This document shows positions 21,320 through 24,300 of a stretch of 64,000 nt of DNA, one piece after another. The first letter of the stretch is position 1. Each line of letters opens with the position of its first letter. The notes under the pieces were generated by a model that was given only the letters and a program-made list of their open reading frames with translations, had not been told where the DNA came from and did not search any database. The DNA is from Myxococcales bacterium (lineage in GTDB: Bacteria > Myxococcota_A > Polyangia > Polyangiales > Polyangiaceae): NCBI GenBank assembly GCA_013297655.1, contig JAAFHV010000007.1, positions 1 through 64,000 of the forward strand, given 5' to 3'. A program made the translations under genes and the position numbers.

Positions 21320-24300
21320 TCAGCCGACGGCGATCCCGAGCGTCTTCCGGAGCGCGAGGTACTGCTCGCTCACCGAGAACACCAAGAGCTCTTTCATCTT
21401 CTCTTGGGGCGGGAGATCGCCGGGGAGCTGCTGCTCGGCGCCGATGATCTTCTTCGCGATGTCGAGGTCTGCGCACAGGAGGAGACCCGCGCGCGCGGCG
21501 GTGATCTCGGTCGCCTGCATCCATCGCTTCAGGTCGGCGCGGGCGCCGTCCTCGACGAAGCGGTTGACGACGAGACGGAGCGAGTCGCGCTCGACCGGCT
21601 GCATGTACTTCATGAAGGTCGTCGCGGTGGTGTTCACGGCTTGCGCCATGTTCTCGGGGACCGCGAAGTCCGGCATGACCATCTTGATCGCCGAGAACAA
21701 GATGACCTTGAGCTCGTCGAGGGTCGGGAACAGCGTCTTGATGTAGTGCTCGGAGCGGTAGTACGCGAGGTGCTTGCCCACGATGAACGTGAGCTCCTGG
21801 GGCGTGAAGCCGGTGAGCACGGTGTTGCCGGCGACGCTGGCGACGGGGCGCGAGGGCACCGTCACGAGAGCTCCGGGTACGTCGTTGCGGAGGTAGAGCT
21901 CCGGAAGCGGGATCCCGAGCACCTGCGCGGCCCAACCGAAGGTCTTCGCGAACGTGACCGTCGAGGTGGCCGGATCTTGTTTGAACTGCTTCGGAAGCGG
22001 CGGGAGCTGCTTCGCCTGCAAGAGCGCGGTCGTCTTCGCCATGATCGCGGCGGGGGTGACGAACTCGAAGATCTTCCCGATGAAGATGTTGTCGTCTTTG
22101 TGGAAGAGGTTCTTCACCCACTGCTCGTTGTCGAGCCGGCTCTTCGCTTGGATCATGCCGCGGGGGCGATAATCCTCGAAGAACCGCTGCTCTTCCTCGT
22201 CCGCCTTGTGGAGGAACGAGAGCGCCGCGCACATGCACCATGCACGGTCGTAGTCGTGCATCTTGAGCGACAGCTTGTAGAGGCTGCGGTACGGGTCGAC
22301 CCGGAGCGGCTCTTTCTGGAGCACGATGAGGTGCTCGCCGATCGCCGCTTCGATGTTGTCCGTGTTTTCGTAGAGCTCCGCGAGGATCTGGCGCTCGAGC
22401 GCCTCTTCCGGCTTGAAGCGGGTGGCCATCTTGAAGGCTTCGATCGCGCTCGGCCAGTCACGCTGGCGGTCGCGGTAGATGAGGCCGAGGGAGTGCCACA
22501 GCGTGTACTCGAGGTCCGGATCCGAGATGTTCGCGGTCGAGAGACGACGGAGCATCTTGCGGAACGCACGCTCGAGACCCTTCCAGTCTTGGGCACCGGT
22601 GAGGATCTTGTTGATGCGGTCGAAGGCCTGCAGATCCTTCGGGTTGAGGTCGAGGGCCTCGTTGAAGAGCTCGACTGCGCGATCGAGGTCGCCCTCTTTG
22701 TCGCGGTAGAGCTGCGCCATCGTGAAGATGAACTTCGACTTGCGCATCGGATCTTTTTCCATGTCGGCGATTGCCTGCACGGTGTCGATCATGCGCGCCC
22801 AGTTGCCGGTGCTCTCGTAGAGCGCGAGCATCTTGTGGAGGAGCGGACGGTCCTCCGGCTTGATGTCCTTCGCTTCTTCGAGTGCCTCGATCGACTTGAG
22901 CGGATTCTTGTCGTTGTCGTTCCAGATGTCGGCGATTTCCATCAACATCCGGAAGCGCTCGTCGCCTTCCATGACGTTGTCGAGGATTTGCCGGCGGTAC
23001 GAGACGACCTGCTTCCAGTCCTTGATCTCGGCGTACACGTCGATGAGCGCATCGAGCGTGGGCCGGTGGGCCGTGTCGACGCCGAGGGCCTTCTCGAAGT
23101 TGTTGATCGCCTGCTTCGCCTGACCCTGCTCGCGCTTGATGCGACCGAGCTTGAAGTAGACGTCGGCGCGGGCCGAGGTCTCCTCTTCGCCGAGGGAGGT
23201 GAGCACCTTCTGGAAGTTGTTGAGCGCGCCGGCCCAATCCTTCAAGCGGAAGCACACCTCCGCGAGACCGCGGATCGTGACTTGGTCGGTGAGGTCGAGC
23301 TGCTGCGCGGCGGAGTACGCCTTGAGCGCGCGGTCGTCTTTTCCGAGCGCGGCCTGGGTGTGGCCGAGCTTGTTCCAGAGATCGTGTTGCTCGGAGCGGT
23401 CGCGCTTGCCGGCCTTGCGGGTGAGCATCTCGAGGAGAGGCTCGGCCTTGGGCCAGTTCTCGCGCGCGACGTGCTCGTTCGCGAGCGGAAGCGCCGCTTC
23501 TTCGTTGTCGGGGTCGGCTTCGTTCGCCGATTCCCACGCGAGCACAGCGGACTCGTGGTCGCCGAGCATCTCCTCGCGGAGGCGCCCGAGCTCGACCAAG
23601 ATGCGCGCGCGCTGACGCGGCACCGAGGTGTAGCTCTGCTCCTGATCGATGTACCGCGCCGCCTTGTCGTAGTCGGCGTTGTCCATCGCGATGGCGCGGA
23701 GCGCCTGCAGCGACGGGATGTGCGAAGGATCGAGATCCAACGCCATTTCATAGCGATCTTGAGCAGATACGCGGTCGCCGACCTTCTCGTCGAGCGCCTT
23801 GCCGATGCGGAAGAAGGCTTCCACGCGCTGCTTGGCGTCGGGGGTGAGCTCGGCGACGCGGGTCATCGAGTCGATCGCGGCGTTGATGTCGCCCGTCTTC
23901 TCGTAGAGCTTCGAGAGCGCTTCGAGGGCGGGCACGTTCGTCTCGTCGAGGTCGACGATGTTGCGGTACGCGTCGATCGCGCGCTCCGCGTCGGAGATCT
24001 CGTCGGAGTAGACCTGCGCGATCGCGCCGTAGAGATCGATCTTGGTGCGGCGATCGATCGTGGCGGCGATGTGGCGGTCGTACGTGGTGATGAGCTCGGT
24101 CCACTGACGGAGCTTGCGGTAGCACCGCGCGAGACCGACGTAGGCCTCTTCCTGGTTCGGGTCGATCTCGACCGATTGCTCGAGTCGCTGCGCGGCGATG
24201 TCGGCCTTGAGGAACTGGTCCTCTTGGAGACGCGCGACCTTGAGGAGAAGATCGATGCGCTCGCGCTCGGTGTTGACGACCTCGAGCTCTGCCTCGAGGA

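Follow-up and report, generated by a model that had tools for sequence, protein, structure and literature searches.

A predicted M48-derived pseudopeptidase domain at the C-terminus of a giant GltI-like TPR protein from a Myxococcales bacterium

The gltI-like gene and its C-terminal domain

The window analyzed here is a stretch of 64,000 nucleotides from a Myxococcales bacterium (assembly GCA_013297655.1, contig JAAFHV010000007.1, positions 1 to 64,000), in which a single open reading frame (ORF) encodes a giant protein resembling GltI/AgmK, which is described as an intracellular scaffold bridging the Agl motor, GltG and MreB (PMC13104615). Matches to families of tetratricopeptide repeats (TPR) run throughout this protein, and its N-terminus, MDLQERLSHLENVRDWQGL, does not have the look of a signal peptide. 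With 3,844 amino acids (aa), it has the size, TPR content and lack of a signal peptide that identify GltI/AgmK (about 3,400-4,200 aa). The subject of this report is the C-terminal end of the protein, which very probably is a catalytically dead gluzincin pseudopeptidase derived from family M48 and most likely serves as a docking module. The features discussed below are collected in Table 1.

Table 1. Positions of the gltI-like gene, elements of its C-terminal domain, neighboring genes and a related peptidase gene. Coordinates are those of the window unless preceded by the name of another locus; residues are numbered in the GltI-like protein.
Feature	Position	Strand	Residues	Evidence
GltI/AgmK-like giant TPR scaffold, 3,844 aa	21320..32854	-		translation; TPR-family matches along length; neighbor order as in M. 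xanthus G1 cluster
Putative C-terminal M48-like pseudopeptidase domain	21323..22162	-	3565-3844	AlphaFold and zincin fold matches
Segment covered by the profile-profile alignment to intact M48 peptidases	21353..22018	-	3613-3834	hhalign
Pseudo active-site helix GKHLAYYRSEH, for GHExxHxxNxH	21746..21778	-	3693-3703	homologue alignment
Third-ligand helix EITAARAGLLLCAD; Glu 3783 retained, Ala in place of the Asp of ExxAD	21467..21508	-	3783-3796	
DLPPQEK at the position of the HPx4R plug; His and Pro gone, Arg replaced by Lys	21398..21418	-	3813-3819	
Sigma-54 activator with an FHA domain, next gene downstream of gltI, in the place of gltJ in M. xanthus	19732-21012	-		
FHA-domain protein, GltG-like	34905..37031	-		PF00498, E 3.8e-14
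TPR protein, 569 aa, GltE-like	37682..39391	-		gene order and size
TPR protein, 1,254 aa, GltD/AgmU-like	39166..42930	-		gene order and size
Intact soluble M48 peptidase, same genome	L225:8392-9288			PF01435, E 6e-26

The boundary between the repeat array and the terminal domain is apparent from structure prediction: residues 3519-3562 form TPR-like helices, and the M48-like part comprises residues from about 3590 to 3844. AlphaFold, supplied with 47 orthologues, modeled residues 3519-3844 with a mean predicted local distance difference test (pLDDT) of 94.4 and a predicted template modeling score (pTM) of 0.92, packing the domain against the last TPR helices as a single confident unit; the domain in isolation reached a pLDDT of 92.0 and a pTM of 0.89. 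In Foldseek searches, the top ranks were taken by Ste24p and ZMPSTE24 (prob 0.75-0.89, E 0.06-0.2). Structural superposition of the isolated domain with VIA-align 2 yielded Ste24p (Z 8.3), Q74D82 (8.1), BepA (7.8), BlaR1 (7.2), the minigluzincins (6.0-6.5) and HtpX (4.8), and practically all chains with Z > 4 were zincins. Matches to 14-3-3 structures, which appeared with the longer model, were due to the TPR helices and vanished once the model was trimmed. Each Z score is modest, but the agreement within one superfamily, combined with the sequence profile described below, makes a convincing case for a gluzincin-type fold in the model. The first-pass annotation of this DNA had set the last 280 residues apart from the TPR array and had proposed AlphaFold and Foldseek as a check; both the separation and a match to M48/zincin folds were obtained.

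Relationship to M48 peptidases and state of the active site

The relationship to M48 becomes visible only when profiles are compared with profiles, when genomes are searched with a profile, or at the level of folds. In Pfam, including PF01435, nothing was retrieved for the five domain copies of this genome (E up to 1) or for the window copy (E up to 10). When 140 copies of the domain were compared using hhalign to 13 intact M48 sequences, which include the soluble M48 group of Myxococcota as the source of the strong link, the two profiles aligned over 178 columns with a prob of 98.3 and an E of 1.1e-14, collinear across both motifs and on to the C-terminus; a reversed-profile control gave a prob of 0.3. 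Against the general (HtpX/YggG-type) M48 set alone, the match is weak (prob 14.5, E 0.0019). A hidden Markov model (HMM) of the five own-genome copies also matched M48 peptidases scoring above the PF01435 cut-off, the matches forming two collinear blocks at the two motifs, with E values of 1e-7 to 1e-4 that serve only as a guide, since the searched loci had partly been picked as M48. When whole genomes were searched using the domain profile itself, a frame in which HELGH and EFTADRAGLL are intact (L108) was also retrieved, at E 5e-5. The shared ancestry with peptidase family M48 that these comparisons point to is convincing, and the M48 resemblance asserted in the first-pass annotation is upheld by the profile alignment, its null control and the zincin matches. 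That these likenesses of helices arose by chance is scarcely credible: the missing single-sequence database match and the weak Foldseek E values would fit such a reading, but they are set against the gap between alignment and reversed control, the intact M48 frame retrieved from a genome and a structural match list filled with zincins.

The closest relative for comparison is an intact soluble M48 peptidase of the same genome (HECGH...EITCDRA...HPYLTKR), which shares about 180 collinear columns with the GltI domain, including the W..RAEIT.DRAGLLC helix and a C-terminal KR..A..F..SELY pattern. It differs in its intact HECGH, ExxCD and HPx4R motifs and in being a protein of about 300 aa without a TPR array. 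A gene for a dynamin-family GTPase follows it on the same strand (L225:8392-11247). Among characterized proteins, the best structural matches, Ste24p/ZMPSTE24 (M48A) and Q74D82 (3C37), are active zinc enzymes, Ste24p being a membrane barrel. BepA/YfgC of E. coli (PDB 6AIT, 6SAR; Z 7.5-7.8) likewise joins an M48 fold to TPRs, but it is active and periplasmic, with the peptidase first and a short TPR domain after it, whereas in the GltI-like protein, which has no evident signal peptide, the dead domain comes last, after an array of more than 3,500 residues.

In BepA, zinc is bound by H136 and H140 of HExxH and by E201 of the ExxAD helix, joined in the plugged state by H246 of HPx4R (PMC7950410). 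The corresponding GltI segment is TPQELTFIVGKHLAYYRSEH (residues ~3684-3703, translated from the 21320-32854 ORF). At the aligned site, HExxH is absent from all 140 homologues, which cover many Myxococcota families, and the first zinc histidine is replaced by Lys/Arg in 130 of them. No other HxxxH occurs at the active site, nor does HPx4R at the plug position (0/140); HExxH strings in two frames (L143, L168) are located elsewhere than at the active site and are attributed to chance. The third-ligand position retains Glu/Asp in 118/140 sequences, with Glu in the window protein, and 113/140 combine this residue with Lys/Arg at the first histidine. Polar residues such as R3836, S3829 and D3796 are almost invariant over the 140 copies. 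Because HExxH is missing throughout at the aligned site, the domain is, by its sequence, a homologue of M48 and not a member of the family as a peptidase, and because no homologue across Myxococcota keeps the motif, the alignment indicates that its loss is old, not a product of recent decay or error.

Several details of the first-pass annotation bear on this site. The Lys-His-Leu in place of His-Glu is present as quoted, and its proposed alignment of homologues turned up neither a close nor a distant relative with HExxH. Its account of the second motif was right on the exchange of Asp for Ala and mistaken in taking this Asp for a zinc ligand, which is the preceding, conserved Glu. Its picture of a fold without metal ligands holds for HExxH and requires amendment for the one ligand-type acidic residue that most copies have kept. 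A rebuilt metal site, made from other residues and supporting a peptidase or another hydrolase, could draw on this acidic residue and on the further conserved polar residues R3788, D3796 and R3836. With no HExxH or alternative HxxxH at the site and a positive charge at the first histidine position that should repel a metal, continued enzyme activity is nevertheless very improbable.

Distribution, constraint and genomic context

The domain is a reusable and widespread module of Myxococcota that is carried mostly by TPR proteins and is not specific to GltI. Matches were found in 204 of 377 sampled Myxococcota genomes, a few of them (family f29, G189) only through related M48-type proteins. Four further copies in the same genome show 27-36% identity and form the C-terminal ends of frames that measure 559-1,854 aa; three of these four belong to TPR proteins. 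One is a 1,794-aa protein with an N-terminal Ser/Thr kinase followed by TPRs and the pseudo-M48 domain (L221:2788-8172); the same layout, at about 1,790 aa, recurs in two other genomes (L228:67-5436, L229:393-5762), where the kinases lack DFG and look like pseudokinases. The 1,852-aa and 1,264-aa copies have TPR matches, the former being encoded beside a Ser/Thr kinase gene, and Pfam gave no match for the 557-aa copy. Since HExxH is absent from all five own-genome copies, its loss is most simply placed before their split and before the domain spread through the phylum.

A group of M48-like proteins that stand alone, with a length of about 310 aa (L103-L113, family f29), has also lost HExxH, with Arg/Gln at the first histidine, and mostly keeps the E..ADRAGLL helix. 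A quick tree placed this group beside active enzymes, as an independent loss of HExxH would, but a tree that unites all inactive forms in a single clade fits no worse (approximately unbiased test, p-AU 0.76), and there may have been one loss or two.

In pairs of GltI orthologues, the ratio of nonsynonymous to synonymous substitution (dN/dS, Nei-Gojobori) is <= 0.27, which indicates that the domain is under purifying selection. Across eight orthologues, the domain core is 68% identical, compared to 48-68% along the rest of GltI.

The G1 cluster of M. xanthus has the gene order gltD, E, F, G, H, I, J (PMC3169522). In the window, the GltG-, GltE- and GltD-like genes lie upstream of gltI on the same strand, and their order and rough sizes match this cluster; gltF and gltH have no assigned counterpart in the window, and gltJ is not adjacent to gltI. 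Despite the placement of gltJ, the size and TPR content of the protein and the order of the genes provide good support for the name GltI/AgmK. A gene for a 320-aa TPR protein (33271-34233, minus strand), which is absent from the M. xanthus G1 cluster listing, separates the FHA gene from gltI; in another genome, a similar 307-aa TPR gene occupies the same place (L227:8450-9373). Elsewhere in the window, an odd fusion combines a TonB C-terminal domain with a TonB-receptor plug domain behind it in one protein (9731-11995, minus strand).

A candidate docking module

The explanation that we favor takes as ancestor of the domain a soluble M48 peptidase similar to the one that this genome still encodes in intact form. 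By its sequence, the domain has lost the two histidines that bind zinc, the catalytic glutamate and the histidine plug, and it is predicted to bind no catalytic zinc and to cut no peptide bonds. The conserved Lys/Arg at the first zinc histidine position probably pairs with the retained Glu/Asp, because the two positions meet at the metal in M48, and would thereby hold the two core helices together in a metal-free state. The former substrate groove, now at the end of the TPR solenoid, would most likely serve as a docking site for a peptide or protein. In GltI, candidate partners may be sought on the cytoplasmic motor platform, namely GltG, AglRQS, AglZ, MglA or MreB. Given the purifying selection on the domain (dN/dS <= 0.27), a function as a binding module, as proposed in the first-pass annotation, is a reasonable assumption.

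Several observations weigh against this explanation. The domain of the single GltI protein has no direct match in Pfam, NCBIfam or PDB sequences, and the domain profile has none among PDB sequences either. Structural Z scores of around 8 are modest, and the Foldseek E values are weak (best 0.06). The Lys/Arg-Glu/Asp salt bridge is suggested by sequence positions, and the association of the two residue types (Fisher test, p 0.009) comes from a test that ignores phylogeny. The candidate partners are drawn entirely from the published scaffold role. GltI/AgmK of M. xanthus (MXAN_4863, 4,132 aa), likewise a giant TPR protein, encoded in a cluster of the gltD-E-F-G-H-I type (PMC3169522), has been published as a TPR protein and scaffold only, without a reported C-terminal domain, and was compared by description only.

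The alternative that survives best is a structural cap, in which the domain stabilizes a very long TPR solenoid at its end without any docking role. Its C-terminal position in proteins that differ widely in length and the confident AlphaFold unit formed with the last TPR helices would both suit a cap, but the core ranks among the best conserved parts of GltI, seemingly beyond what closing a solenoid requires, and the near-invariance of R3836, S3829 and D3796 in 140 copies points in the same direction. We therefore regard a mere cap as unlikely. A broader form of the docking explanation is possible but doubtful: here, the pseudo-M48 domain would be a general C-terminal docking module of giant TPR scaffolds and TPR-(pseudo)kinases of Myxococcota, with a Lys/Arg-Glu/Asp bridge replacing zinc, and in GltI it would be the handle that holds the gliding motor or a GTPase/cytoskeletal partner.

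No published description of M48 pseudoproteases, or of such a domain in GltI, was found in the open-access literature searched, in line with the first-pass annotation, which knew of none for AgmK. A 2024 review of metallopeptidase pseudoenzymes contains no M48 case (PMC11266112); the pseudopeptidases of other families that it covers are likewise inactive homologues with a binding or scaffolding function. GltI, the largest component of the gliding machinery, has so far been regarded as TPR only. A folded, conserved and catalytically dead end, as predicted here, would provide a separately expressible piece with which to seek the contact between the scaffold and the motor, GTPase or MreB. That a kinase and further TPR giants carry this module as well suggests a common docking logic in Myxococcota, and the M48 family would gain a large inactive branch.
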